The position numbers were made by a program, and so were the translations under genes. Positions 4,058 through 37,774 of a stretch of 37,774 nt of DNA are shown here, one piece after another. The notes under the pieces were generated by a model. That model was not told the origin of the DNA. It did no database searches and was given only the letters and a program-made list of their open reading frames with translations. The stretch is from a virus: IMG/VR virus record IMGVR_UViG_3300036820_000050, positions 1-37,774 of that record, one strand, 5' to 3'. The first letter of the stretch is position 1; every line of letters starts with the position of its first letter.

Positions 4058-5089
4058 CTAGCTCGGCACAGGAGCGTTGATCGTTCCTGTTTCCATTTTA
4101 TAGGCCTGCCATACAATTACTTCATTCGCTTGACCAGCGGGAGAACCAACCCCTGCAGGAAGATACATATAGGGTATGAATACTCCTGTGTGGAAAGGGA
4201 TCTGGTTGAAGTTGTATCCTGTTTGGACCCCAGTAATTGGATTATACTGAGTAGATTGTCCAGCAGGAGCTATAGTTGCATACAACGTAGTTGTCGGCGA
4301 TCCAGAGCTTGCAGGAAGTGCAAAGGCGGTGAAGCCTGTTGTATTTACGTTAATTGTAAAGTTATAGGCATCGACAATAGATGTGACGACGACAGGTAAA
4401 TTCTGAGGCAGATAGAAGTTGTTAAGTTGAACCATCCCATAAGAGCCTGGGATTGTAAATTCTAACTTCTGTCCCAAGTAAACACTGTTTGCTTGAGAAA
4501 CAGTAACCTTACCTTGAGCTGCTTGTGTGATTGCTGTCACATATAAGAAGCTTGGTTCAACAGGAGTAAACCCGCTGACTCTTCGCACTTTGAAAGCAGT
4601 GGCTGCTGATCCTGGAGTATTTAGCCCTAAAAGTGTAAATCCAGAACCAGAAACAGAAGAAATGGTAAATGTCATTCCTGAAATCTGTTCCAAGCCAACC
4701 GCGTTATAAATCACAACGGTATCCCCTTCTGAATAGGTATTAGTAACCGTAGCGACGGCAGGAGTTGCATTGGTGATGGTTGTTCCTGTTAAGGCTGCTT
4801 CTGGTTGAGGAAACTTGTTAACATATGTAAAACCATTAACACCTGCATTGGCAAACGATTCTATTGATATCGCATCACCTGTTGATTTAGACCATTGTAG
4901 ACCATCATTGACAGCTGTAAGCCCACCCCCAAACCATTCACCTCTCACGCATCCAGTTGTAGAAGCTAGTGCCATTTTGGTTAAGTTTGTAGTCACAAAA
5001 TAATCGACACTGCTTGGCAGCGGAATTATTTGACTCACTGCTATTGCAGGCTGTGTAAAAGTACCTTGAGTAACGATTGTAAAAGGCAT
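4058..5089 (-). CDS. Abundant-type virion protein with two FCCH-like repeats, next to capsid (343 aa)
   Basis: The gene starts 13 nt after the capsid gene stop, with AAGGAG upstream of ATG 5089, and is followed by a terminator, so it is co-expressed with capsid. The protein is low in charge and Thr/Val/Asn rich. Degenerate repeats occur at about residues 105-170 (GLEQISGMTFTISSVSGSGF) and 195-265 (GSYGMVQLNNFY, then NFTINVNTTGFTAF). Position and composition suggest a capsid decoration or head-fibre protein, a common partner gene directly after the major capsid gene. No enzymatic motif is seen. Confidence 0.8.
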   Translation of the reverse strand: MPFTIVTQGTFTQPAIAVSQIIPLPSSVDYFVTTNLTKMALASTTGCVRGEWFGGGLTAVNDGLQWSKSTGDAISIESFANAGVNGFTYVNKFPQPEAALTGTTITNATPAVATVTNTYSEGDTVVIYNAVGLEQISGMTFTISSVSGSGFTLLGLNTPGSAATAFKVRRVSGFTPVEPSFLYVTAITQAAQGKVTVSQANSVYLGQKLEFTIPGSYGMVQLNNFYLPQNLPVVVTSIVDAYNFTINVNTTGFTAFALPASSGSPTTTLYATIAPAGQSTQYNPITGVQTGYNFNQIPFHTGVFIPYMYLPAGVGSPAGQANEVIVWQAYKMETGTINAPVPS

Positions 5090-5102
5090 AATCTTTATCT
5101 CC

Positions 5103-6071
5103 TTATGATGGTTGGAATGTTGTTACGTTCAAACCAGAGATCCAGTTTTGGTTTGTGATTGCGCGAGCAATTGCAAACTTGGCGTACAACTGGCTATTCT
5201 GTGCAACAGAGGACACAACCCAAGGTGGACGATATCCAATGACTGCGGTGTAGTTGTTCTGCTCGATTTTAGCGGCAGCTTCTAGACCAAACATTGGGAT
5301 CGTATAGACTGTATTACCTTTTAATGAGATACCTGGTGTCTTCGCAGCTTTAGAAGAAACGAAGAAACGGAATCTGCTAATAGAGCAATATTCCTCTGGG
5401 CGAATACCTTCTTGTGTTGGGTATGCTGATTTCAGCAACACACCTTGAACTTTCTGAAGGTCTGCGGCCAAGTTTGTGTTTGCGAGCGCTATAAAGGCGT
5501 CTCGAACACCACCTGTCGCGAATTTCAGGGTCGCTTCTAGGCTTGTAAGCATGCTATGAGCGTCATTACCTAATAATATGTTTTCGATGTTGTTTACATC
5601 GTTCAAAGAAATGTTACTAGGTTGGTCGCCGTTTAAGCCCCCAGTGGCGTTTATATAACTGACGCTCGAGCTGAATAGGTCACGCATCAGGAGATCTTCC
5701 TTCTCTCTCAACCATTGTCCTAGCAATGCTGTGAACTTGGTTAGGGTCTTAGAATTCTCCCAAAGAACGAGCTGCTCGTTAGTAACGATAGACTTGGCGT
5801 AAATTTCCATAGTCGCATCGATATCTGTACGAACTGGTACTTCTGATGCTGGATCAATACCCGAACCGTCAAGCTGACCGCCGTCTGTTGACAAACGTTC
5901 AAAGCGAGACATACGAGTGGTTTTACCCACGTAACTTTCTGCATGATGTAAATCAACGCCGAAAGAGTGGATCAAGTTAAACATTGGAGTGGATAATAGG
6001 TCTTCGGATGCCTGAACTGGTAGCTCAGGAGCCATATTCTGAATGCCTGTAATCCCTGTCGAGAATGACAT
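5103..6071 (-). CDS. Major capsid protein, N4-gp56-like (322 aa)
   Basis: The protein has the layout of the N4-gp56 major capsid family: a long acidic N-arm, a central alpha-rich block at about residues 85-135 (TMEIYAKSIVTNEQLVLWEN, then LLGQWLREKEDLLMRD), and a C-terminal beta block (GNTVYTIPMFGLEAAAKIEQ) ending in KFAIARAITNQNW. Length is in the usual range for HK97-fold capsids. Its own promoter and a roughly 120-nt leader precede it, and RBS AGAGG lies 5 nt before the ATG. The scaffold gene is a few small genes upstream. The family name is from memory; the capsid role is firm from context. Confidence 0.85.
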   Translation of the reverse strand: MSFSTGITGIQNMAPELPVQASEDLLSTPMFNLIHSFGVDLHHAESYVGKTTRMSRFERLSTDGGQLDGSGIDPASEVPVRTDIDATMEIYAKSIVTNEQLVLWENSKTLTKFTALLGQWLREKEDLLMRDLFSSSVSYINATGGLNGDQPSNISLNDVNNIENILLGNDAHSMLTSLEATLKFATGGVRDAFIALANTNLAADLQKVQGVLLKSAYPTQEGIRPEEYCSISRFRFFVSSKAAKTPGISLKGNTVYTIPMFGLEAAAKIEQNNYTAVIGYRPPWVVSSVAQNSQLYAKFAIARAITNQNWISGLNVTTFQPS

Positions 6072-13180: not shown

Positions 13181-14457
13181 TAATATCCTGCAATTCCTCC
13201 ATGTAACATTGAACCCCATCCATCATCTGTACCAAATACTTGTCTACGCAATTGATCATAGGTGATGTTTTCGTCTGGGTGACTAAACTCTGCTTGAGGG
13301 AAAGCTGAGCAAACGGCATATCTCAAGGCATCACAAATGTGATCATTTTTCTTGACTGGTTTATCTTCGCCTCTATCTGCTGCTTTAGAATCCCAAGCGT
13401 AAGATTGAATACATTCTCTTAGAATGGTACATCCTTTTTGAATGACTATATTTTTTCCGCCAATAAACTTTGAGCAGATTTTAATGCCAAGTAATACGTC
13501 GTTATTCGCATCATATACTGGGAGGTCTTTGTGTCTAAGGGCGATTTTGAGAGAGGCAGCTGCAGGGTCCACGTAGATAGCAGATATGTTTTTATAGCCG
13601 ATGAAGTCCTTGATATCTCGAACAAGCTCTTCATCCGTCTTAGACCTACCTTTTTTAGCCGAATCATAATAATATTCTGCTTCCACGCGTATTTGTGGCC
13701 ATTTGTTAGGAGTAACTGCACATAATACTGCTGCTGTTGCATTAGTAGTACCATAGTCAACGCCGATGATATAATACGATGGGGAAGGAAAAGGATTTTC
13801 ATATTCATTATGGTGATCATAGCAATCGTAGATAGCTCCGTGGGCAAGCGCCCATTGACCAAGAATATATCGATTGTACCACATACCCGAATACGATGCT
13901 TTAAGCTGTTGTTTGTATGCTTCATCAAGTGTTGGGTTATCCTCTAAGTTAAAGTTCCAATGAGCAAGATCAAGTCCTGGTTTATCAATGTAATCTTTCT
14001 TTAACCAATGGGCTGGCCCTTCAGGGTTGCACGTCGCTAGGAGTTTCGCACCTGGCACACGCAACCTGGACTCTAACATCTTCCAAAAAGGCTCGGGAAG
14101 GTTTGTTGCTTCATCAACGTAAGCTAGAGCTAGAGTCGACCCTTGTATGGTCGAAACCGCTGAAACATCTGGCGCACCTACGAACCAAACATCTCGTCCA
14201 TAAAGTCTACTCATCTGTGCTTTTTCTGTTGGACATGGGAAACCTAATTGCCTATATAAATGTGTTAAAATGTTACGTTGAATAGATGTTCGGTTGACGC
14301 CTATAATCATAACATCGCCTTTCGGGCCGTGCTTTAGATCATATATCAATCTTTCAAGGCTAGAATAGGTTTTTCCAGAGCTTACAGCTCCTACCCAAAT
14401 ATTGAAACGATGAGTCGCTTCAGCAAAGCTCTTATTCTGCTTCGGACTTGTCGGCAT
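13180..14457 (-). CDS. terL: Terminase large subunit (425 aa)
   Basis: DNA-packaging motor ATPase and nuclease. Walker A is GAVSSGKT at residues 23-30, Walker B LALAYVDE at 109-116, and the coupling-type motif LLATCNPEG at about 139-147. The C-terminal RNase-H-fold nuclease shows IGVDYG (Asp 234), AIYVDP (Asp 297) and HICDALRY (Asp 376), the three acidic positions expected. Size and motifs suit the PBSX/Terminase_3 type. It overlaps terS by 26 nt. Circular permutation of the assembly suits headful cutting. Confidence 0.95.
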   Translation of the reverse strand: MPTSPKQNKSFAEATHRFNIWVGAVSSGKTYSSLERLIYDLKHGPKGDVMIIGVNRTSIQRNILTHLYRQLGFPCPTEKAQMSRLYGRDVWFVGAPDVSAVSTIQGSTLALAYVDEATNLPEPFWKMLESRLRVPGAKLLATCNPEGPAHWLKKDYIDKPGLDLAHWNFNLEDNPTLDEAYKQQLKASYSGMWYNRYILGQWALAHGAIYDCYDHHNEYENPFPSPSYYIIGVDYGTTNATAAVLCAVTPNKWPQIRVEAEYYYDSAKKGRSKTDEELVRDIKDFIGYKNISAIYVDPAAASLKIALRHKDLPVYDANNDVLLGIKICSKFIGGKNIVIQKGCTILRECIQSYAWDSKAADRGEDKPVKKNDHICDALRYAVCSAFPQAEFSHPDENITYDQLRRQVFGTDDGWGSMLHGGIAGY

Positions 14458-14830
14458 CCTTGTCTCCCTTCAATTTTTCGATTTCAGCTCTAAGGATCAT
14501 GTTCTCATGGCGCAATTCTAATTGGTCTTCGAAAGGAGAAGTCTTTTCTTGTTCTTTACCTTGATTTAACCTTTCACGCCCTAAAAGGGTTAGCATGTTG
14601 ATATTACCTCCTAAAGCCTTCATGTATTGCATAAACTTTAAATTTGAATCTCCGCCCGAGTAGAAGTAATCCGAAGAATCCACAAATCGTTTTCCATAAT
14701 GTTGTTGGAATCTTCTATAGAAAGTATCGGGATCAATGCGAAGTGCTGCTGCAATTTCTATGCCATTGCAACCAGCTTCCATTCTTTTTTCTACGATATC
14801 CCAATTTATTTCCTTCTGCTTGCGTGACAT
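14432..14830 (-). CDS. terS: Terminase small subunit (132 aa)
   Basis: The N-terminal helix-turn-helix (INWDIVEKRMEAGCNGIEIA, then ALRIDPDTFYRRFQQHYG) matches the DNA-recognition domain of small terminases. The C-terminal part is a coiled coil (ELRHENMILRAEIEKLKGDK) for oligomerisation. It recognises phage DNA and delivers it to TerL. It directly precedes terL with overlap. A perfect inverted repeat lies 18-48 nt before the start. Confidence 0.85.
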   Translation of the reverse strand: MSRKQKEINWDIVEKRMEAGCNGIEIAAALRIDPDTFYRRFQQHYGKRFVDSSDYFYSGGDSNLKFMQYMKALGGNINMLTLLGRERLNQGKEQEKTSPFEDQLELRHENMILRAEIEKLKGDKDADKSEAE

Positions 14831-23685: not shown

Positions 23686-24522
23686 ATGAATCAGGAGTTA
23701 ATTGCCAAAAAAGAGCAAGATTTTTCGATCATTGAACAAGTTGTAATGCAAGGAGATTTATCCAAATTAAATCCCGAGCAACGAGTTACCTATTATAGAA
23801 AAGTTTGTGAAAGCTCTGGACTAAATCCTTTTACAAATCCTTTTGCTTACATTCTATTAAATGGAAAGCTAACTCTTTACGCAAAGAAAGACTGTACCGA
23901 ACAGCTAAGAAAAATCAATGGCGTTTCTATTGAGGAATTAGACGATAAGCTCATTGATGATATTTACGTCGTTACCGCCAAGGCTAAAGATAAGCACGGT
24001 CGAATAGATCAAGCCAAAGGCGCTGTAGCCATCGGAAATCTAAAAGGCGAGGCAAAGGCCAATGCGATCATGAAAGCGGAAACAAAGGCCAAAAGAAGGG
24101 TTACATTAAGCATCTGCGGAATGGGATGGACTGATGAATCGGAAATTGATTCTATACCAAATGCTAGACCTATCGATGTTGACTTTGGAACGGGTGAGAT
24201 TAAGGATATTTCGCCAGTCACTGTAACTCCCATTGTTTCTCCAATACCTCAAACTGCTCCTTCTGCGCCAGTGAATACTAACCCTAAAATTAACAACGAT
24301 CAAGTTGCAGAATTGGCAATGATTTTAGATGAATGCGATGCAGGTTATAAAAAATGGGTGTACGAAAGAGTTAAAAGTCAATTTAAGACCGATGACTTAA
24401 CTGGATTAACGGTGGATATGTATGAACGTACAAAATCTGCTGCTTTAAAGAATATGCAACAATACCATGAAAAACAAAGAGCCGAAGCACAACCTGAATT
24501 ATTAGCGGCGGAGGTCCAATGA
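23686..24522 (+). CDS. Single-strand annealing recombinase, RecT/Bet-like (278 aa)
   Basis: Residues from ATG 23686 (site GGAGA, 4 nt upstream) fit a phage annealing-protein pattern: LNPEQRVTYYRKVCESSGLN, PFTNPFAYILLNGKLTLYAK, KDCTEQLRKINGVSIEEL, then AETKAKRRVTLSICGMGW and a Pro-rich linker to a helical C-terminus. Its partner is the YqaJ nuclease, with ATGA overlap, as in Red and RecET pairs. It would coat and anneal single strands made by the nuclease. An in-frame GTG at 23527 with a strong ribosome site could add 53 residues; I prefer 23686 because the family usually starts near here. Which annealing superfamily it falls in needs profile comparison. Confidence 0.78.
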   Translation: MNQELIAKKEQDFSIIEQVVMQGDLSKLNPEQRVTYYRKVCESSGLNPFTNPFAYILLNGKLTLYAKKDCTEQLRKINGVSIEELDDKLIDDIYVVTAKAKDKHGRIDQAKGAVAIGNLKGEAKANAIMKAETKAKRRVTLSICGMGWTDESEIDSIPNARPIDVDFGTGEIKDISPVTVTPIVSPIPQTAPSAPVNTNPKINNDQVAELAMILDECDAGYKKWVYERVKSQFKTDDLTGLTVDMYERTKSAALKNMQQYHEKQRAEAQPELLAAEVQ

Positions 24523-25421
24523 CTAATACAGCCACTATTGAAGAAGTTCAAGAAAACTCCCCAAAATTAGAGATTCTTGACATGGAACAAGGCAGCCCTG
24601 AATGGCATGCTTTAAGAAAGACAAAGATAACTGCGACTGATGCCTCAGTCATAATGAGAGCATCCCATTGGAAGACACGCATTCAACTTTATCATGAAAA
24701 GCTGTCTAATGACCCACCTTTCCCACCAAATGAAAGGATGCAAAGAGGAATTGATCTAGAACCTATTGCCAGAGAATTGTTTAACTTAAAGACAACATGG
24801 TACATGGAGCCTACTGTTTTAGTTAAAGACTGGATGATGGCTTCTCTAGACGGAAGAGATGCGCTATCTGGTGCGATTTTAGAAATAAAGTGTCCTGCAG
24901 AAAAAGATCACGTCATAGCCTTATATGATAATAAAGTTCCCGATCATTATTACCCTCAACTTCAGCATCAAATTTATGTTTCTGGTGTAATGATGGCTTA
25001 TTACTTTAGTTTTGACGGCATGGATGGAGTAATTGTTGAAGTCAAAAGAGACAATGATTACATAGAAAAAATGCTAATTGAGGAAAAAAAATTCTATGAA
25101 TGCCTGATAAATAAAACACCTCCTGAACCTGATGAATCTGATTATATAGAAAGAGAGGACGATCTATGGAGACAATGCGCTATGAAGTGGAAATTAGTGA
25201 CGACCTCTATAAAAGAATTAGAAAAAGAAGAGGAAGACTTAAGAAAGCAACTCGTATTTTTAAGTGGAGAATCAAACTCAAAGGGGGCAGGTATATCGCT
25301 ATGCCAGGTTATCAGGAAGGGAATAATAAATTACTCAAAAATTGAATGTCTTAAAAATATGGATTTAGAAATTTATCGAAATCCTTCTTCAAGTTCATGG
25401 AGAATAACACATGGAAAATAA
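24519..25421 (+). CDS. YqaJ/lambda-Exo-type recombination exonuclease (300 aa)
   Basis: The PD-(D/E)XK nuclease core is clear: GSPEWHALRK at 25-34, ITATDASVIM at 37-46, RGIDLEP at 76-82, SLDGRD at 109-114, LEIKCP at 121-126 (Glu 122, Lys 124) and HYYPQLQHQIYVSG at 143-156. This family digests one strand from duplex ends to feed the annealing protein. The C-terminus (about 190-300) is an added coil and small domain. ATG overlaps the partner stop, with GGAGG upstream. Confidence 0.93.
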   Translation: MTNTATIEEVQENSPKLEILDMEQGSPEWHALRKTKITATDASVIMRASHWKTRIQLYHEKLSNDPPFPPNERMQRGIDLEPIARELFNLKTTWYMEPTVLVKDWMMASLDGRDALSGAILEIKCPAEKDHVIALYDNKVPDHYYPQLQHQIYVSGVMMAYYFSFDGMDGVIVEVKRDNDYIEKMLIEEKKFYECLINKTPPEPDESDYIEREDDLWRQCAMKWKLVTTSIKELEKEEEDLRKQLVFLSGESNSKGAGISLCQVIRKGIINYSKIECLKNMDLEIYRNPSSSSWRITHGK

Positions 25422-25470
25422 TTCACATTTAATCAAGTTTTGCAAGCATGTTTAACAATTGGAGGATCAC

Positions 25471-25635
25471 ATGCACATAAAAGAATTTATCATTAAGGTA
25501 TCTTTTGTGACTTTTTGTTTAGGAGTCCTTCTTTATCTATTCTATCCCTGTTATGAGTTTATAGATGAAACTCATAGAGTAAACACTATTACAGGAAGAG
25601 TAGATTATTATGAAAGTCAATATTATTATAAATGA
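25471..25635 (+). CDS. Small single-pass membrane protein (54 aa)
   Basis: ATG 25471 has GGAGG 5 nt upstream, one of the best ribosome sites here. One membrane helix (VSFVTFCLGVLLYLFYPCYE) is followed by a polar, Tyr-rich tail (RVDYYESQYYYK). It ends 18 nt before the U tract of the leftward terminator. It is the last gene of the recombination operon. Function unknown; membrane exclusion or inhibitor roles are possible. Confidence 0.72.
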   Translation: MHIKEFIIKVSFVTFCLGVLLYLFYPCYEFIDETHRVNTITGRVDYYESQYYYK

Positions 25636-25653
25636 TAGAACCTACAGGTCCTG

Positions 25654-25683
25654 AAAAAAAGGGTAAGATGATAGTTCTTACCC
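25654..25683 (-). terminator. Strong leftward rho-independent terminator ending the late half
   Basis: GGGTAAGA (25661-25668) pairs with TCTTACCC (25676-25683), 8 bp, 7-nt loop; on the minus strand seven T follow (25654-25660). It stops late transcription before it collides with the plus-strand recombination operon. The hairpin may also weakly stop plus transcripts. Confidence 0.88.
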
Positions 25684-25715
25684 CCCTCCCGTTAACCAAA
25701 ACTAAGGAGTAAACG

Positions 25716-25790
25716 ATGAAAAAACTCTTTCAAATATTTTTTACACTATTTACTATTTTTCTTCATCATCTTTTTTGCTTTCTCACCTAA
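25716..25790 (+). CDS. Possible 24-aa hydrophobic peptide
   Basis: ATG 25716 follows AAGGAG with 6-nt spacing, and the stretch before it copies the start region of the recombination operon (GTTAACCAAAAC, then TAAGGAGTAA and ACG). The peptide (MKKLFQIFFTLFTIFLHHLF, then CFLT) is like a bare signal/membrane helix. Its 3' half is antisense to the end of the 51-aa minus gene. It resembles the small hydrophobic peptides of type I toxin systems in form only. Confidence 0.4.
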   Translation: MKKLFQIFFTLFTIFLHHLFCFLT

Positions 25791-25901
25791 CTCGCAAGTT
25801 TTATCTCGGGCTTTATCAGCTGTCTCTAGATGTTTGAGATCTTTTTTTGCTTTGCTTTTCTTAGGGACTTCCTTTTCTATCTTTCTAATTAGCTTATCCA
25901 T
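25746..25901 (-). CDS. Small Lys-rich phage protein (51 aa)
   Basis: ATG 25901 with AAGGAA 5 nt upstream, TAG 25746. The sequence (MDKLIRKIEKEVPKKSKAKK, later ADKARDKTCELGEKAKKMMK) has the (A/L)DK-RDK-C-xGEKA pattern that, from memory, recurs in small proteins of podovirus-like phages. Last gene before the terminator. Role unknown, perhaps virion or DNA associated. Confidence 0.72.
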   Translation of the reverse strand: MDKLIRKIEKEVPKKSKAKKDLKHLETADKARDKTCELGEKAKKMMKKNSK

Positions 25902-25910
25902 ATTATTTCC

Positions 25911-26369
25911 TTAATTTTTTGATACTTGATTAGCGTATTGTTGAAGCATAGCTATCAACAAATTAAATTCTTGAATATTTATCATAACAGAATTTCTTGC
26001 CGAAAATGCTGCCGAGGTGGCAATTGGAAGATAATTTATAGTATAAACAAGAGAAGATAAAGAAGTCTGAATATAAGTTATCTTTACAACACCTACGTTT
26101 GTCTCAGTAATTTGAAAATTACATAATGGCAAAGATTCAGTTAGATAGGATTTTAATGTAGGAAAATTATTAAATAGTAATGTATTAAATGTTTGTAAAT
26201 ACTTTATATAAAGTAATAGATCAGATTGGGCAAGATTAAATTCACTCGTAGTTTGAAAAGTGATTTGATTATTTGCAAAAGAAATATTATCTATCAAAGA
26301 GGGGTTATTAAAATTAATGCATTGAGTTCCACCAATTATATCAAAAATTGTTGTTGCTGTCCGTGCCAT
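25911..26369 (-). CDS. Hypothetical late protein (152 aa)
   Basis: Rich in Asn, Thr, Leu and Phe, low in charge, with strand-like repeats (QITFQTTSEFNLAQSDLLLY, later LVYTINYLPIATSAAFSARN). It starts in a TAATG overlap with the 50-aa basic gene. The composition is like that of virion beta proteins, but no domain is recognised. Confidence 0.68.
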   Translation of the reverse strand: MARTATTIFDIIGGTQCINFNNPSLIDNISFANNQITFQTTSEFNLAQSDLLLYIKYLQTFNTLLFNNFPTLKSYLTESLPLCNFQITETNVGVVKITYIQTSLSSLVYTINYLPIATSAAFSARNSVMINIQEFNLLIAMLQQYANQVSKN

Positions 26370-26521
26370 TATTTCTTACCTTTCTTGGGTATTTTAGCCC
26401 CTGACTCTCTTGCTTTTGATAGACCTATTGCAATTGCTTGCTTCCTTGGCTTCGCTGCATTTATTTCGGTAGCTATATTACTTGATATGGTCTTCTTACT
26501 TTTTCCACTTTTTAAAGGCAT
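26369..26521 (-). CDS. Small basic protein, DUF6496-like (50 aa)
   Basis: ATG 26521 to TAA 26369. The sequence begins MPLKSGKSKKTISSNIATEI and holds KPRKQAIAIGLSKARESG, the hallmark of short phage proteins grouped as DUF6496-type. The ending is KIPKKGKK. Function unknown; often found in podovirus-like late regions. The stop overlaps the next ATG (TAATG). AAGGAGAATGAG lies upstream. Confidence 0.82.
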   Translation of the reverse strand: MPLKSGKSKKTISSNIATEINAAKPRKQAIAIGLSKARESGAKIPKKGKK

Positions 26522-26548: not shown

Positions 26549-27445
26549 TTACCACTTATAAATTGCGCTTACTTCCGCGGTCTTTGTAGTGGCTATTTTT
26601 CCTTGGAGAAAAAAATTGTTAGTAAAAGCATACGCAAGTTTAGCTTGAAATCCTTTGCCAATCCCCGATTGGTCGTAGCAAGGAACTGCGTTACTTTCTA
26701 AGTATTGATAGTTAAAATCCATTAAATAGTCACTAGCTTTATTCAAAGATCCACAAGAAACTCCGAGATAAAACCCATTTCCATTTTCGCTTTGCCGATG
26801 ATTGATTAGATAAGCGGCGTAAACATTGAGATAAGGCACAAACTCATATTTTACTAAAGCCTGGGAGATTAAATAATTACAATATAGATCGTGACAATTA
26901 CAAGCCGACCAATCAGCAATTGAATATTTCACTGTAAGCGGAATGTTAAAAAGTTCCGAAACTGCACCTTCTATAATATAACCAAATTGGTTAAGAGAAG
27001 AATTAATAACATGTGGACCACCTTGAATCGAAAGGTTTTTGTAATGGTATGAAAGCAGAACACCATTGAAATGGTTATCAAATTGGAGCTTAGATTCAAA
27101 TAAAGCATCCAATTTATTACGACCAAATTCTACATCTAAATAAGAATCTTCATCTTGATATACATTGCATCCAATAAGTAACTTGTGTAATTCAAGTGCG
27201 ACATTTGATTTTTGAGTAGTCTCAAAGGGATTAGATATTTTAACTTTCGTCTGCATCCATGCTTCAGGAAATTCGTAATCTAACCCGAAGATAGCTTCAC
27301 ATTTGAGGGTATGATCATATTTATTTTGCCAATTCGAGCACGATTTTATTCTTACATCACCCGTTAGAGTATATGGCTTACCTTCTGCAAAAAGCACATT
27401 GACGGAAAGCAAGAAAAAAAATATAACCGCAAAGAGTTTCTTCAT
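26549..27445 (-). CDS. Phage-encoded outer-membrane beta-barrel (298 aa)
   Basis: A clear signal peptide (MKKLFAVIFFFLLSVNVLFA, cut near residue 20) is followed by alternating polar/aromatic strands through the whole length (LDVEFGRNKLDALFESKLQF, GVLLSYHYKNLSIQGGP) and a C-terminal strand ending in aromatic W (KTAEVSAIYKW), the mark recognised by the BAM machinery. The mature protein has eight Cys, unusual for a proteobacterial porin but normal for chlamydial outer-membrane proteins. From memory the FGR--LD-LF-SK--FD--F-GVLL pattern recalls a barrel family of environmental Chlamydiota. It probably alters the host surface, for example superinfection exclusion. Confidence 0.82.
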   Translation of the reverse strand: MKKLFAVIFFFLLSVNVLFAEGKPYTLTGDVRIKSCSNWQNKYDHTLKCEAIFGLDYEFPEAWMQTKVKISNPFETTQKSNVALELHKLLIGCNVYQDEDSYLDVEFGRNKLDALFESKLQFDNHFNGVLLSYHYKNLSIQGGPHVINSSLNQFGYIIEGAVSELFNIPLTVKYSIADWSACNCHDLYCNYLISQALVKYEFVPYLNVYAAYLINHRQSENGNGFYLGVSCGSLNKASDYLMDFNYQYLESNAVPCYDQSGIGKGFQAKLAYAFTNNFFLQGKIATTKTAEVSAIYKW

Positions 27446-27463
27446 TTATCACCATATGTTAAT

Positions 27464-27487
27464 GGCGTTTGACACTTGACAAACGCC
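27464..27487. other. Perfect 8-bp hairpin between the two exported-protein genes
   Basis: GGCGTTTG (27464-27471) pairs with CAAACGCC (27480-27487) around an 8-nt loop, in the 49-nt gap between the cysteine-rich gene stop and the barrel start. On the minus strand no U tract follows, so attenuation, mRNA protection or start-site masking for the barrel is more likely than termination. On the plus strand TATTTTATT follows. Confidence 0.5.
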
Positions 27488-27494
27488 TATTTTA

Positions 27495-27797
27495 TTATCG
27501 GTCTGGCGGACCATTTCGACCGCTATTATTACAGCTTTGATTTTCACATCGTCCATTTGGTCCGAACCGTGATCCACAGTTATCGCATTGACCAGCAGCC
27601 ATTGGTTTTTGAATAGCAATGTATTGGCCCGCACAATAAGTTATTGTGTCTACAGCACATATATTGCCAGCAATTTCACAATAGATACCTTCATTTGTCA
27701 ATAGAATCTGATTTTTTGTCAGACAATTTTGCGATTGAGCATAAAGCCCAGATAAAGACAAAAAAAGGGTTACGATAATAAAAAATAAAGTGCGCAT
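27495..27797 (-). CDS. Secreted cysteine-rich protein (100 aa)
   Basis: The start is ATG 27797 with GGGAGG 4 nt upstream. A signal peptide (MRTLFFIIVTLFLSLSGLYA) is followed by about 80 mature residues with eight Cys: NC, GIYC, GNIC, TYC, then GQCDNC and GRC with QSC in a Gly/Asn/Arg tail. Even number and spacing suggest disulfides in the periplasm or envelope. It directly precedes the barrel gene, which is also Cys-rich, so the two may form one cross-linked envelope complex. No family recognised. Confidence 0.72.
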   Translation of the reverse strand: MRTLFFIIVTLFLSLSGLYAQSQNCLTKNQILLTNEGIYCEIAGNICAVDTITYCAGQYIAIQKPMAAGQCDNCGSRFGPNGRCENQSCNNSGRNGPPDR

Positions 27798-27861
27798 GAT
27801 ACCTCCCATAAAAAAAGAATGGTAGAGTAAGAAAGAAAAGATTTTATTAAAAGAAAAATTT

Positions 27862-28914
27862 TTAGGCGATTAAAGCACCACCGAAGAAGTTATTAGCTGC
27901 CACAGCGTTTATACTTACGGTTTTAGTGCTTCCTGAGACAGTCACTTGTATTTGTGCAGTATCTCCCGCAGCCATATTAGCAAAAGCATTAACTTGTAGA
28001 GATACTTGACCTGCTGTGACCACTATGGGAGCAGGGTTAAAGAAACTTCCAGGATAATTCCCTCCTGTAGTTATTAAATAAATAAAAGCAGATGTTTGAG
28101 CGACGACCCCTACAATAAATACATTTGAACTAAAATGATATCTTCCTGCTACGGGAGCGGTAAAGACTCCTGTTGTGGAATTATAATTAGAATTTTGATC
28201 ATATGAAGGCACATCAAATATTACTGTGTAAGTGGTGCCATCGCCAGTGACATTAGTCTTATTTGTCCCCGTGACTGCATTAAATGCTGAGGTTAAAGGT
28301 TTGTTAACATTCCCAGTAGTTGTCATTGTCAAAATATTTGGTAAAGCAGGGAAAGCTCCCGAATTCCCATATTGAAAACGGAAAATATTGCTTGAGCTTG
28401 TTTTGTCTACTCCATGCCACCAATTATTTCCCAGAGATGAATAGTTCACAAAAGCAGGACCTCCGCCAGTAGTGGAAGTCTGAATTAATAAACTTGAACT
28501 GCTGCCTGCTGTAGTTGAAGTATTAGAAATATTTAGATTGACTGGTGATCCTGGATTGGATAATCCACCTACCGCTACCTGTGGAACCCAAAAAGTAAAT
28601 GTAGAAAGAAATGATGTTGCACCAGGAATTGCAGAAAAAATATAGTTTCCACCACCAGGGACAACTGCCCCCGAAGCAGAATTACTTAAGGTTAATCGTT
28701 GAGAGGCCGCGTTTTCAATACCCAATGCCCAAGCTTGTGTGGTTCCAACTATCCATGAAGTATAAGGATTTGCAGAAGTAGTGCCTCCAACAGAAATTAA
28801 ACAAGCTGCGGCAGAGGAGGCAGTATTGCTTGGGTTTTGAATCAAAAGATTATTCGTTATGCCAGAATTGCTTGCGCCGACTGTATTATTGATTGAATTT
28901 GTGACTGTGACCAT
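27862..28914 (-). CDS. Tail-fibre tip protein with C1q-like domain (350 aa)
   Basis: Residues 1-210 are low-complexity beta repeats. The last 140 residues follow the C1q/TNF jelly-roll: SAFNAVTGTNKTNVTGDGTT, YTVIFDVPSYDQNSNYNSTT, GVFTAPVAGRYHFSSNVFI, then AGQVSLQVNAFANMAAGDTA and a final NNFFGGALIA strand. This trimeric fold binds surface ligands in animals and occurs at phage fibre tips. It is the probable receptor-binding protein, last of the fibre cluster and next to the exported cargo genes. Confidence 0.82.
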   Translation of the reverse strand: MVTVTNSINNTVGASNSGITNNLLIQNPSNTASSAAACLISVGGTTSANPYTSWIVGTTQAWALGIENAASQRLTLSNSASGAVVPGGGNYIFSAIPGATSFLSTFTFWVPQVAVGGLSNPGSPVNLNISNTSTTAGSSSSLLIQTSTTGGGPAFVNYSSLGNNWWHGVDKTSSSNIFRFQYGNSGAFPALPNILTMTTTGNVNKPLTSAFNAVTGTNKTNVTGDGTTYTVIFDVPSYDQNSNYNSTTGVFTAPVAGRYHFSSNVFIVGVVAQTSAFIYLITTGGNYPGSFFNPAPIVVTAGQVSLQVNAFANMAAGDTAQIQVTVSGSTKTVSINAVAANNFFGGALIA

Positions 28915-28915
28915 A

Positions 28916-29731
28916 TTATGTTACCACCCAGTTTCCTGTAGAATTTAATGCAATCCATTGTGTGGTAGCTGCTCGATAAATTAGTTCTAGGGCATCTCCA
29001 CGCTGTGTGCTCATAGCGTTGCCTGCCGTTGCTGAAACGGTATTACCTAGACGGATTGTTTGGCCTGTATTGGCTGTGACTACGACTGCACCTGTTGTAT
29101 CACAAATTATTTTAACTACATCACCTTGAGAGGGAGCAGCAGGTAGAGTTTGTGTAGTTGACGTTGTGACAAAATATCCGCGATTAATAGCAAGAGTTAT
29201 CCCCGTTGCTTGATCAATCCAGACAAATCCATCCCCTAAAGATGAAACAAAACCGTTAGCATCGACTGTGAATTGCGCTGAATTAAAAGCAGCTAATCCA
29301 ATATTTGTAGCATTCGTGGAAGCAATCGCTTGTGAAATTTGCACTTCGACAGCCATCGTATTTACGCCAGTACCGTCGGTTCGTACAGGATTTGTCCCAG
29401 CGGCTACGGTTGCCCCATTTATGGTGACTAAGCCACCAGCTGTTGGCACTATTGGGCTTGTACCTGTTTGCACGGCTATTGAGTCTATAGCTAACCCACC
29501 GCCTGCTAAATCAATTGTTATGTTTGGGGAAGAATATCCAACAGTTAGGGTGCCAAGAGGAGAAGTTATGGTTCCTACATTGATGTGAGTACCTCCCACA
29601 TTTAATGCGGTCGATCCAATCCAAAATTGCCCATTGGTAAGTAGTCCATTTGCTGCTTGACCTTTAGTAGATCCTGCAATGCTGAAATCGCCATTATTTG
29701 CATAGACTATATCGTTTGCAAAACCTGCCAT
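28916..29731 (-). CDS. Tail-fibre protein (271 aa)
   Basis: Beta-repeat sequence rich in Gly/Ala/Thr (GTITSPLGTLTVGYSSPNIT) with a terminal block DVVKIICDTTGAVVVTANTG, then MSTQRGDALELIYRAATTQW and IALNSTGNW. That closing block is common in phage fibre proteins. The C-terminus abuts the C1q-like gene (1-nt gap), so the two probably build one fibre. ATG 29731 overlaps the upstream stop by 1 nt. Confidence 0.8.
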   Translation of the reverse strand: MAGFANDIVYANNGDFSIAGSTKGQAANGLLTNGQFWIGSTALNVGGTHINVGTITSPLGTLTVGYSSPNITIDLAGGGLAIDSIAVQTGTSPIVPTAGGLVTINGATVAAGTNPVRTDGTGVNTMAVEVQISQAIASTNATNIGLAAFNSAQFTVDANGFVSSLGDGFVWIDQATGITLAINRGYFVTTSTTQTLPAAPSQGDVVKIICDTTGAVVVTANTGQTIRLGNTVSATAGNAMSTQRGDALELIYRAATTQWIALNSTGNWVVT

Positions 29732-30300
29732 TATACCACCCTCACATAGGTTGCCACTGTCCTCCAGTCATGCGTTGTTGCTGCAATCCCAGTTGCTTGA
29801 ATAACGGCATTATTGCCACTCACTACTAGATTGGCATCGGCTGTATCTGAAACTTCTTCATTAATAATTTTATCGGGAGTGCCGCATAATGTAGCTGTGG
29901 CTCCATCGGTTCTTATCGACCCAGAGATAAAGTACCCATCTCCATTTACGCTAGTGACGTTTAAGCAGGCAATTTGAATGTCGAATGTATAAACTGCAGG
30001 AGTTGCCCCTAATGCAAAAGTAGCAATCGCCGTAGGTGTTGCATTGGTTGTGGTTAAAGATCCCGTTATGCGATTTGTCAATTCGGTAAAGACGCTATTT
30101 CCATTATTAGGATTGGCATCCGTTTGAATACCATTTGCATTATCTTGGCTAGTCGATCCTCCCAGAAGTTGCAAGACATTGGCCGCAGGAATCGCCGTCC
30201 CTGGTGATGCTGTCGAATTATCTCTTACATCCGTGGTAAATGAAGTTGGGACTGCTGGAGGAACAGGTCCCGAAAGTAGACTTTTATAAATTTGACTCAT
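29731..30300 (-). CDS. Tail-associated structural protein (189 aa)
   Basis: An N-terminal stretch (MSQIYKSLLSGPVPPAVPTS) looks like a virion attachment tail. The rest is beta-rich (YTFDIQIACLNVTSVNGDGY, later VVSGNNAVIQATGIAATTHD then WRTVATYVRVV). Fibre-base or head-fibre role inferred from place. From memory, the MSQIYKS-----PPAVPTSF start recurs in phage tail clusters. Confidence 0.78.
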   Translation of the reverse strand: MSQIYKSLLSGPVPPAVPTSFTTDVRDNSTASPGTAIPAANVLQLLGGSTSQDNANGIQTDANPNNGNSVFTELTNRITGSLTTTNATPTAIATFALGATPAVYTFDIQIACLNVTSVNGDGYFISGSIRTDGATATLCGTPDKIINEEVSDTADANLVVSGNNAVIQATGIAATTHDWRTVATYVRVV

Positions 30301-30307
30301 CTAATAC

Positions 30308-30643
30308 CTATGGATAATTAACAACGGTAGTTGGATAATTAATGTATGTATAAGAGATAGAGAAACTTCCTGAAGCTGCCCCATTTCCTGTGAATATTGT
30401 CCCTCTAGGAAATGTATAGAGATCGTCATCCAAAACTATACATTCGCCAGCACTAAATGTTTTCCATTGAATGGGGCCTCCGCCCACATTTACGGATAAA
30501 ACAACGGGTGCTGTGCTTTGATTATCAAAAATCAATTTTACAGGACTGAATAAGAGGGTGCCGATTGCAACTGGACTTCCTGTCATAGCTGCAATCAGTT
30601 CTGGGGCTGGAAGCATCTGTTGATATAAAATAAAGTCAGCCAT
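30308..30643 (-). CDS. Small tail-cluster beta protein (111 aa)
   Basis: Reads as a single beta-sandwich (PVKLIFDNQSTAPVVLSVNV, then GECIVLDDDLYTFPRGTIFT). No catalytic motif. It lies between two fibre genes with short gaps, so it is probably a fibre connector or chaperone-like virion part. Confidence 0.75.
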   Translation of the reverse strand: MADFILYQQMLPAPELIAAMTGSPVAIGTLLFSPVKLIFDNQSTAPVVLSVNVGGGPIQWKTFSAGECIVLDDDLYTFPRGTIFTGNGAASGSFSISYTYINYPTTVVNYP

Positions 30644-30656
30644 GTCTTCCTACCTA

Positions 30657-31607
30657 TTAGTTAAGGACTAAGAAATTAAGTGTCAATGAAGCGGTATTAG
30701 TAGTTGCTCCAGTTCCATTCTGAATAGTGACCACCGATTGGTTTGCTGTATTAGCATAGGATTGGATGGTCAATGCTGCTCCAGTTGTGCCTCCAGTAAG
30801 CCAATATCCTACTTGAGTTCCTGATCCAGTGATAGAGGTATTAGAAATTGTCATTGCAAAAGTCGCTCCTGCAGCAATGCTTGGGGTTGTAATTGTGACC
30901 TGACCAACGCGACCATTAAGAGTTGCTGTATTCGTTCCAGAAGTGGCTGCTGCATTCAAAGTGATGCCAGCCCCTGCTGTTGTAGCCACAAATCCAGTAG
31001 CTGCTGTCATATTACCTGTGACAGAAGGAGATGCTGTATAGGCAGGTATTACACCCACACCACCGCTTGCAAGCAATTGACCTACGGCAACATCTGCTAT
31101 TTGCCCTACAACGTTTGTCGCGGTAGCAGCAAGAAGAGATCCTGCAGTAACTGTGGCAGGGAAAGTGGATGTCGTCCACGTAGGATCCGCAGAAGCTCCT
31201 CCCGAGGTGAGTACTTGGCCAGCTGTTCCTGCCGTGGTTGCCACAATAGATGAAGTTCCTTCACCAATTAAGACGCCATGAGCTGTGTATGTGGCAGGAG
31301 TATACGGTCCAATTAATGATAAAACTACGTTTCCTACTGTAGGAGTAGCAAGAATCTGATTTGCTGTACCTGTGACAGAAGAAACTCCGAAAGTTGAATT
31401 AGGTAACTGATACCAAATTCCTGATCCAATTGTATAATATTGAACGGCAGGATTTACACTATTATCTTGCCAACGAGTGCCTGGATTATAAATATCTTGA
31501 GTAGTTGGGGCGCGAAGAGCATACCCAATCATTTGAGGATAAACAAATGCGTCTACACCTGTTGCAAATGGGGTACCCCCTGCTGTATTGCCTAAAGAAG
31601 CCGTCAT
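30657..31607 (-). CDS. Tail-fibre protein with Ala/Gly/Thr repeats (316 aa)
   Basis: After a folded N-terminus (residues 1-75, MIGYALRAPTTQDIYNPGTR) comes repeat-rich shaft sequence: GQVLTSGGASADPTW, SLLAATATNVVGQIADVAVG and VTITTPSIAAGATFAMTISN. First gene behind the second copy of the shared late promoter. It may be the proximal fibre or an Ig-like shaft. GGAG lies 7 nt before ATG 31607, inside an ATGA overlap with an open frame upstream. Confidence 0.8.
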   Translation of the reverse strand: MTASLGNTAGGTPFATGVDAFVYPQMIGYALRAPTTQDIYNPGTRWQDNSVNPAVQYYTIGSGIWYQLPNSTFGVSSVTGTANQILATPTVGNVVLSLIGPYTPATYTAHGVLIGEGTSSIVATTAGTAGQVLTSGGASADPTWTTSTFPATVTAGSLLAATATNVVGQIADVAVGQLLASGGVGVIPAYTASPSVTGNMTAATGFVATTAGAGITLNAAATSGTNTATLNGRVGQVTITTPSIAAGATFAMTISNTSITGSGTQVGYWLTGGTTGAALTIQSYANTANQSVVTIQNGTGATTNTASLTLNFLVLN

Positions 31608-36266: not shown

Positions 36267-37774
36267 TTAGATCTGCGTCATTCTTCCTGCACGTCGTATC
36301 CATAAGACTTGGGCATCAATCTGGACGTCCTTTGTCTGTTCTTCCCCTGCCATTTGAGCATTAGAAAAGGTATATTCAAGTGTTAAAAAGTTGGCTCTTG
36401 TTGGGCACATCACCCGTTGCCAAAACTTAGTTCCTCCCATCTTGTTCAATGTAGAAGGGGTAGTAGGAATGATCGAATTGAAAAAGGTATCGGGAATACC
36501 AGGAGGCCCAGAGTTCGCTATCCTATTATTTGGCAAAGTATTAGATGGATCATCTTCGGTGTAATCTTGGTAATCCAAATAAACGAATAGCGATATAGCT
36601 CCTGGCTCGCCAAGTTCAGTTGCGTTCATCAAGATGTCCAAATACCCTAATTGGATACTTTGACCTTCATCAAGGAAATTGAATCTCTTGCTAACGATAG
36701 AAAAGTTATCTCGAATATTGATCTGGCCGCCACCAATATAATCACCATCTGGAACATCTAATTGAGGCTTGGTAAAATCTTCTGTGACAGGATTAAATAG
36801 ATAGATTCTAAAATTATCAGCAGGATCTGCATTTGAATTGTCACCTAAGACAATCCCAAATATTCCCCCATTTAAATTGTCATAAGGAGTTCCGCTTGGA
36901 ATGTTTTGAATACCGATCACATCGCCTGTTTTTAAATTATGATTTGGCGATGTGATGACGGTAGGTAAATTAGTATTAGCTTGAATGCCTGTGATCGAAA
37001 GGCTCACATCATCCACTGTTTGCTCATCGAGATATTCAACATATCCTTGCTGATTTCCACCTAAAATATCAGGTTGACCTCTTGCTTGTGTTCCAATCCA
37101 TGAGAAGTTACACTGAATCCAAGGAATAGGAGTAGTAAGCCACGTTCTACTTGATTGAGGCTGAAAGGTTCCTAATGCGGTATATGTGTCATTAAAGGTT
37201 GCCCATGAATCATTTTCATAGTTGTAGATCAAACGAATATTTGGAAATATTCTATCAGCATCAGGGACCATGGGATCATATGCTGAAGAAAGAGGCACTG
37301 TCCAATAAGCAAGACGGTTGATGAAGTCTCTAATTCCTTGAATCCTTACTGGACCATTATTTTCAAACTGTATTTCAAAAACAAAATCTAAAATCTTAAT
37401 ATCAATTCTTTCGGACCTGTAACTATCGCACTCAACAATCCCTTTATCTCCTATTCCTACAAGAGAAGTATCAAATTGAATGACTGAAAATGGTCCAGAT
37501 CCCCCCAATTCGCTATTCACTCTCTCTATTTGAAAAGGAGCAATAGATCGTCCTGTATATCTCAATTGCCAGGTTGATCGTTCGCAATAAATGACCAGGT
37601 TATCACGAACAAACCCGACCGAGACTATATCCTCGCTTGTTGGGATGTCAAGAAATCCTCCTTGACCCCGAATATCATCTCTCCAAGAACCTCTCGATGG
37701 CGGACCATTATCATAGGGGATAAAAGGATTGCCAATGGTTGACCATCGGATTCTATTTGAAAAGTTTTGTGCAC
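36267..37774 (-). CDS. Large virion (tail) protein, C-terminal part of the 967-aa protein
   Basis: This is the continuation of the gene that starts at 1523; the linear window cuts it inside the terminal repeat. Across the joint it reads GQGGFLDIPTSEDIVSVGFV, then YCERSTWQLRYTGRSIAPFQ. A third, more diverged FCCH-like unit lies at 36780-37005 (SLSITGIQANTNLPTVITSP, then DNFRIYLFNP). Apparent internal start ATG 37565 is not the real one. The last 60 residues are beta-like and end RRAGRMTQI. Confidence 0.88.
   Translation of the reverse strand, partial: AQNFSNRIRWSTIGNPFIPYDNGPPSRGSWRDDIRGQGGFLDIPTSEDIVSVGFVRDNLVIYCERSTWQLRYTGRSIAPFQIERVNSELGGSGPFSVIQFDTSLVGIGDKGIVECDSYRSERIDIKILDFVFEIQFENNGPVRIQGIRDFINRLAYWTVPLSSAYDPMVPDADRIFPNIRLIYNYENDSWATFNDTYTALGTFQPQSSRTWLTTPIPWIQCNFSWIGTQARGQPDILGGNQQGYVEYLDEQTVDDVSLSITGIQANTNLPTVITSPNHNLKTGDVIGIQNIPSGTPYDNLNGGIFGIVLGDNSNADPADNFRIYLFNPVTEDFTKPQLDVPDGDYIGGGQINIRDNFSIVSKRFNFLDEGQSIQLGYLDILMNATELGEPGAISLFVYLDYQDYTEDDPSNTLPNNRIANSGPPGIPDTFFNSIIPTTPSTLNKMGGTKFWQRVMCPTRANFLTLEYTFSNAQMAGEEQTKDVQIDAQVLWIRRAGRMTQI
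37648..37774. repeat. 127-bp terminal direct repeat, right copy
   Basis: Identical to bases 1-127. See the left copy: it marks circular closure of the assembly. Confidence 0.95.

Follow-up and report, generated by a model that had tools for sequence, protein, structure and literature searches.

Outer-membrane proteins encoded by phages are known from phages of enterobacteria, and coliphage PA-2 encodes a porin (Lc / NmpC type) that excludes other phages. To our knowledge, no conserved porin family linked with fibre genes has been described from a widespread group of uncultured phages. In lambda, lom, the gene of an outer-membrane protein of the Ail/Lom family, is located between the fibre genes J and orf-401 (NC_001416). 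Porins annotated in uncultured phages and found here by structure search include 'Phosphate-selective porin O and P' (Siphoviridae sp. ctBLh2) and 'OmpC' (uncultured Caudovirales), and the Pom porins of Protochlamydia amoebophila (34-39 kDa, PMC3561449) and the Chlamydia MOMP, modelled with 16 strands (PMC3723809), are likewise porins, from intracellular bacteria. Here we analysed the IMG/VR virus record IMGVR_UViG_3300036820_000050, 37,774 nucleotides long and referred to at its full length as the window, which encodes a predicted porin-type outer-membrane barrel next to a small exported protein. We regard this feature as real and orderly, and as a new phage-borne porin family tied to fibre genes, with an exported zinc-ribbon-like companion in two phages. 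The window barrel resembles the PA-2 porin by description, but PA-2 infects enterobacteria and the phage collection gave no match. Its place is like that of lom; lambda Lom, however, is a far smaller barrel (206 amino acids) with no homology to the window family (hhalign 13%), which does not fall within Lom/Ail. The annotated uncultured-phage porins share its fold but only 10-11% identity, and are different proteins; MOMP has the same strand number but a cysteine pattern that is absent from the phage barrels.

The predicted barrel and its homologues

The two adjacent genes are the following.

26549..27445, (-) strand: exported protein of 298 amino acids, predicted 16-stranded porin-type outer-membrane barrel (open reading frame (ORF), AlphaFold2 model, PDB fold search, homologues); strands run from residues 26-38 to 289-297, with the L3 eyelet loop at residues 112-124 (LDALFESKLQFDN)
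27495..27797, (-) strand: exported protein of 100 amino acids with a C-terminal CxxC-x9-CxNxxC zinc-ribbon-like motif (C71, C74, C84, C89) (ORF, ribosome-binding site, homologues, alignment, motif scan)

The small gene starts at 27797 (ATG preceded by GGGAGGT) and not at 27809, and after a gap of 49 bases the barrel gene follows, its ATG at 27445 being preceded by GGTGA as ribosome-binding site. Both proteins carry a Sec-type signal peptide at the N-terminus, called here and throughout with a simple home-made rule. A previous sequence-only reading of this DNA had proposed two adjacent genes for exported proteins with eight cysteines in each mature protein, and its coordinates, its signal peptides (by this rule) and its counts (8 and 8) were all borne out.

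Searches of Pfam, PHROGs, NCBIfam, PADLOC and PDB sequences gave no convincing match for either protein, and scans of viral and genome contigs with single-protein patterns of the barrel and the small protein gave no match. Barrel homologues were nevertheless found in four further uncultured phages (G043, G044, G045 and L204; wider search), the five barrels being 28-41% identical pairwise and the window barrel 39% identical to that of G043 (L126; E 4e-64). The G043 match was found with patterns picked using a bait sequence composed in the manner of a chlamydial barrel family, and likeness to that bait is not counted as evidence; the match was recovered with a bait-free alignment, although this alignment already held the G043 sequence. 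The sequence-only reading would have been abandoned had the best homologues been phage virion proteins only; those found are signal-peptide proteins of other phages and not known virion proteins. Its description of the locus as phage cargo, with a small exported neighbour beside the barrel, is supported.

AlphaFold2 run on the single barrel sequence gave an unusable model (predicted local distance difference test score, pLDDT, 33); run with the five-barrel alignment, it predicted 16 strands with a mean pLDDT of 79 and a predicted template-modelling score (pTM) of 0.70. The model has the antiparallel strands, short periplasmic turns and L3 loop of 16-stranded porins, and its best PDB match by Foldseek was the porin OmpM1 of Veillonella parvula (template-modelling score 0.74-0.76, E 1e-12), described as an outer-membrane attachment porin and 14% identical, followed by OmpF/OmpC-type porins; some annotated phage porins also matched, at lower likeness. 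Polar/apolar alternation in the strands exceeded that of shuffles (p = 0.003), and conservation among the five barrels was higher for pore-facing than for lipid-facing strand residues (0.64 vs 0.52) and highest in the L3 loop (0.75), the strand limits for these counts being taken from the model built on the same alignment, so that they are not independent of it. In known 16-stranded porins, L3 folds into the pore (PMC3723809). The window barrel ends in ...SAIYKW, and a KW ending is found in 5/5 family members, an aromatic end being typical of outer-membrane barrels. The beta-barrel build with a terminal aromatic that had been proposed is therefore supported by 16 predicted strands and by the KW end of all five members; a predicted structure lacking a barrel, which would have told against the proposal, was not obtained. 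Taken together, the model leaves us highly confident that the larger protein is a porin-type outer-membrane barrel, and conservation of L3 and of the pore face is as expected of a working channel, which the protein would probably form.

Single members of the family matched the OMP_b-brl, Porin_4 and TDE1717 barrel models weakly. Porin_5 (PF16930) proteins also have a signal peptide, and the barrel family shows a remote profile-profile likeness to their last-strand motifs (84 columns, hhalign 94.9%), but the cellular Porin_5 proteins are ~380-400 amino acids long and no phage barrel member has a Pfam match to this family. When the barrel profile was compared with 395 genomes from the phylum of a capsid-bearing contig named as Bacteroidetes, five weak matches were obtained, four of them to Porin_5-type proteins, and 198 genomes from the phylum of a contig named as Nitrospiraceae gave no match. 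These two contigs come from metagenome-assembled genomes, and naming a host from them was rejected, as they are contradictory and probably binning errors.

Gene order and co-inheritance with fibre genes

The barrel gene lies after fibre genes in 5/5 phages, and the barrel is inherited together with the neighbouring fibre type: the barrels cluster as the adjacent fibres do, the window with G043 (C1q fibre) and G045 with L204 (fibre 59%). Between the window and G043, the fibres, small protein, barrel and YqaJ exonuclease are 39-61% identical, above the values for capsid (31%) and portal (33%), and we therefore consider that the module moves. The surrounding genes of the window are listed below.

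27862..28914, (-) strand: C1q-type fibre protein of 350 amino acids, directly upstream of the small gene (Pfam C1q, E 5.5e-6; 39% identity to L126:4538-5275)
28916..31607, (-) strand: four more genes in this operon, presumed to encode tail fibres (271, 189, 111 and 316 amino acids; homologues in relatives, function presumed from composition and position)
26369..26521, (-) strand: basic protein of 50 amino acids (DUF6496), next gene downstream of the barrel (Pfam DUF6496, 4.7e-9; phrog_2423)
25911..26369, (-) strand: protein of 152 amino acids (37% identity to L126:3352-3819; like L176:3151-3612 by eye)
24519..25421, (+) strand: YqaJ-type exonuclease, convergent, at the far border of the cargo slot (Pfam YqaJ, 6.3e-25)

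The C1q-type fibre gene is separated from the small gene by 64 bases, and its homologue is also directly upstream of the pair in G043, which keeps the full order (C1q fibre, small protein, barrel, short ORF, convergent YqaJ). In G045 and L204 a different fibre gene is followed by the barrel, short ORFs and YqaJ, and in G044 fibre genes are followed by the barrel and then by a gene for a U-box protein, with YqaJ not found, so that the exonuclease is near the barrel in 4/5 phages. The homologue of the 152-amino-acid protein sits among the fibre genes of G043 (by eye also of G044). As for the small protein, it adjoins the barrel in the window and in G043, and G054 has it elsewhere in the genome and without a barrel. 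The proposal of a paired set thus stands for two phages in which the genes are adjacent, and fails for three with the barrel alone and one with the small protein alone.

In relatives of the window phage, the slot that separates YqaJ from the last fibre gene had 19/127 signal-peptide ORFs vs 43/1375, an enrichment tested with the home-made rule after the pattern had been seen, with wrong slot sizes for two or more records (G008 and G022 among them), and with a count that includes three barrel phages and leaves out the window's own pair. The same slot holds a lipoprotein-like family of ~64 amino acids (G004 14440-14634, G022 29820-30014, G025 4923-5108; similar in G001 and G008), with a lipobox-like cysteine followed by LYQAAEDIADDxAI, perhaps a spanin or an exclusion lipoprotein. 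Beside tail-fibre genes of related phages we also observed a glycosyltransferase of family 92 (7.7e-21; L087 9318-10109, G008) and a Vut_1 uptake transporter (1.4e-27; L200 14835-15551, G054).

A direct terminal repeat of 127 bp is present at positions 1-127 and 37648-37774 of the window, with a long tail gene spanning the join; because of this repeat, the phage genome, of ~37.6 kb, is very probably complete in the window. It encodes a P22-like portal, a terminase and the YqaJ exonuclease. For its presumed capsid gene, which was named from position and conservation and matches no Pfam family, IMG/VR contains 256 relatives. Neither the barrel nor the small protein was encoded in 40 records searched among these capsid relatives, many of the records being fragments. 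A search for defence systems gave no match.

Proposed function of the barrel

We propose, with a rough probability of 0.6, that this tailed phage carries the locus as a cargo module for altering the cell surface, in which an exported porin is placed in the outer membrane of the host, probably for phage exclusion. The porin would leave the cytoplasm by the Sec route, and the barrel machinery of the host would then insert it in the outer membrane of a lysogen or infected cell. There it would form a channel with the conserved L3 eyelet; insertion and pore formation are expected because the signal peptide, the fold and the C-terminus match established knowledge of porins. The altered surface could then stop the adsorption of phages that use the host's own porin, and the new channel could sustain the flow of nutrients, the small protein being probably an accessory exported zinc-ribbon-like protein with no structural part in a disulfide lattice. 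An exclusion purpose is suggested by the link to fibres and by the analogies with PA-2 and lambda, and we hold the claim that exclusion of other phages is the main role of the porin at somewhat below even odds. The sequence-only reading had pointed to phage porins that block superinfection: the porin-type barrel, with its 16 strands, agrees with this idea, and analogy is what backs the exclusion part.

Three observations weigh against the proposal. The conservation of the pore interior suits a role in transport no less than one in exclusion; a barrel is missing from most relatives of the window phage; and no integrase or repressor was recognised in the window phage, which has only a small serine recombinase, so that exclusion would have to operate towards the end of a lytic infection, or in a lysogen that went unrecognised.

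Transport is the main rival. The porin gene might serve host fitness or nutrition, in that lysogens or infected cells would gain a channel, perhaps one for phosphate or another anion, and exclusion would play no part. The conserved eyelet and pore face are in keeping with this possibility, as are the Vut_1 transporter in another phage of the group and the distant resemblance to Porin_5; the genes of two of the Porin_5 proteins concerned (L207, L209) have genes for PstS-like phosphate-binding proteins as neighbours (by eye). The Porin_5 match, however, spans only ~84 columns, and the barrel is co-inherited with fibres and not with metabolic genes, and we regard a purely nutritional channel as possible but rather unlikely. 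Less probable still is a barrel acting as decoy or neutraliser of the phage's own fibres, which would prevent the progeny from adhering to debris or to previously infected cells: joint inheritance with the type of the neighbouring fibre and a position comparable to that of lom beside fibre genes would fit, but conservation peaks in L3, hidden in the pore, and not in exposed loops, and this explanation is improbable.

The cysteines, the small protein and the putative host

The sequence-only reading had likened the two proteins to the chlamydial outer-membrane complex, in which case disulfides between barrel and small protein might make the envelope more rigid. The eight mature cysteines of each window protein and the 5-8 found in every member of the barrel family speak for such a cross-linked set, porins being usually without cysteines and MOMP having 8-10 (PMC3723809), as do the 13-19 cysteines of OmpA-family proteins of Waddlia (PMC2878342) and a host that is probably associated with protists. 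The cysteines of MOMP, though, are conserved in position (PMC3723809), whereas no column of the barrel alignment has a conserved cysteine, each being shared by at most 2/5 barrels. The excess of cysteines in the barrel is also weak, with 8 in 278 mature residues of the window protein vs 4.1 expected from the phage background (P = 0.06) and a small excess for the family (P 0.04). Of the proposed cysteine-rich pair, therefore, the small protein stands (8/80 mature residues, P = 3e-5) and the barrel, not clearly above background, does not.

Among seven likely relatives of the small protein, only C71, C74, C84 and C89 are kept, with an asparagine between the last two, and its four N-terminal cysteines are not conserved; three of the seven (window, G043 and G054) are surely homologous and the other four were placed by motif and signal peptide, without a significant E-value. 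All the ORFs carrying the motif among 6252 distinct phage ORFs (7/7) have a signal peptide, vs 2.2% overall. The CxxC and CxNxxC pairs are conserved in spacing, as in zinc ribbons, and the small protein seems to belong to a family of small, exported, zinc-ribbon-like proteins that may bind zinc. It lacks the cysteines conserved throughout a disulfide-linked protein that mark the OmcA/OmcB type, and no barrel member matched Pfam Chlam_OMP (PF01308). Small exported proteins ending in WxCPYC...CxNxxCPS are encoded elsewhere in phage genomes (L085 15284-15631, L101 11120-11455, L071 876-1187, L110 17737-18039) and are possible relatives.

A disulfide lattice is thus unlikely, and the chlamydia-like cross-linked set very much so, given barrel cysteines without a conserved column, a small protein conserving only its four zinc-ribbon-like cysteines, three phages with the barrel alone and one with the small protein alone, and PomS of Protochlamydia, which functions as a porin with only two cysteines (PMC3561449). 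Because the cysteines are not conserved, the barrel gene appears to be a phage gene for altering the surface and not part of a cross-linked, chlamydia-like coat. One ORF of a Waddlia plasmid matched the barrel profile (E 0.02) and was dropped, the match being essentially to the signal peptide only.

With regard to the host, a relative of the window phage encodes an F-box-like protein (L114 16147-16644, G033; Pfam 5.9e-4, just below the cut-off), and in G044 the U-box protein, convergent with the barrel (L176 458-1366; Pfam 2.3e-6), has a hydrophobic glycine-rich stretch. Bacterial F-box proteins are nearly restricted to amoeba-associated groups, e.g. Chlamydiae, Legionellales, Rickettsiales and Amoebophilus (PMC4209131). 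The F-box-like and U-box genes of these related phages suggest, as far as sequence can tell, a protist-associated bacterium as host. The U-box is in itself a eukaryote-type ubiquitin domain inside a phage genome, and G056 25328-25825 encodes a coiled-coil protein, hydrophobic over a stretch near its C-terminus, that appears by eye to be inclusion-membrane- or SNARE-like.

Tentatively, tailed phages of protist-dwelling, perhaps chlamydial, bacteria might have captured a porin of host type, which fits their receptor-binding fibres and is swapped together with these as one cassette, giving the infected cell a channel that competitors cannot use, with exported zinc-ribbon proteins in the same surface-changing set; we rate this extension as doubtful. 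We know of almost no phage genetics for intracellular bacteria of protists. If the host is such a bacterium, these genomes would offer a rare view of tailed phages reshaping the surfaces of such bacteria. The link between fibre and barrel directly yields a prediction on receptor exclusion that can be tested.
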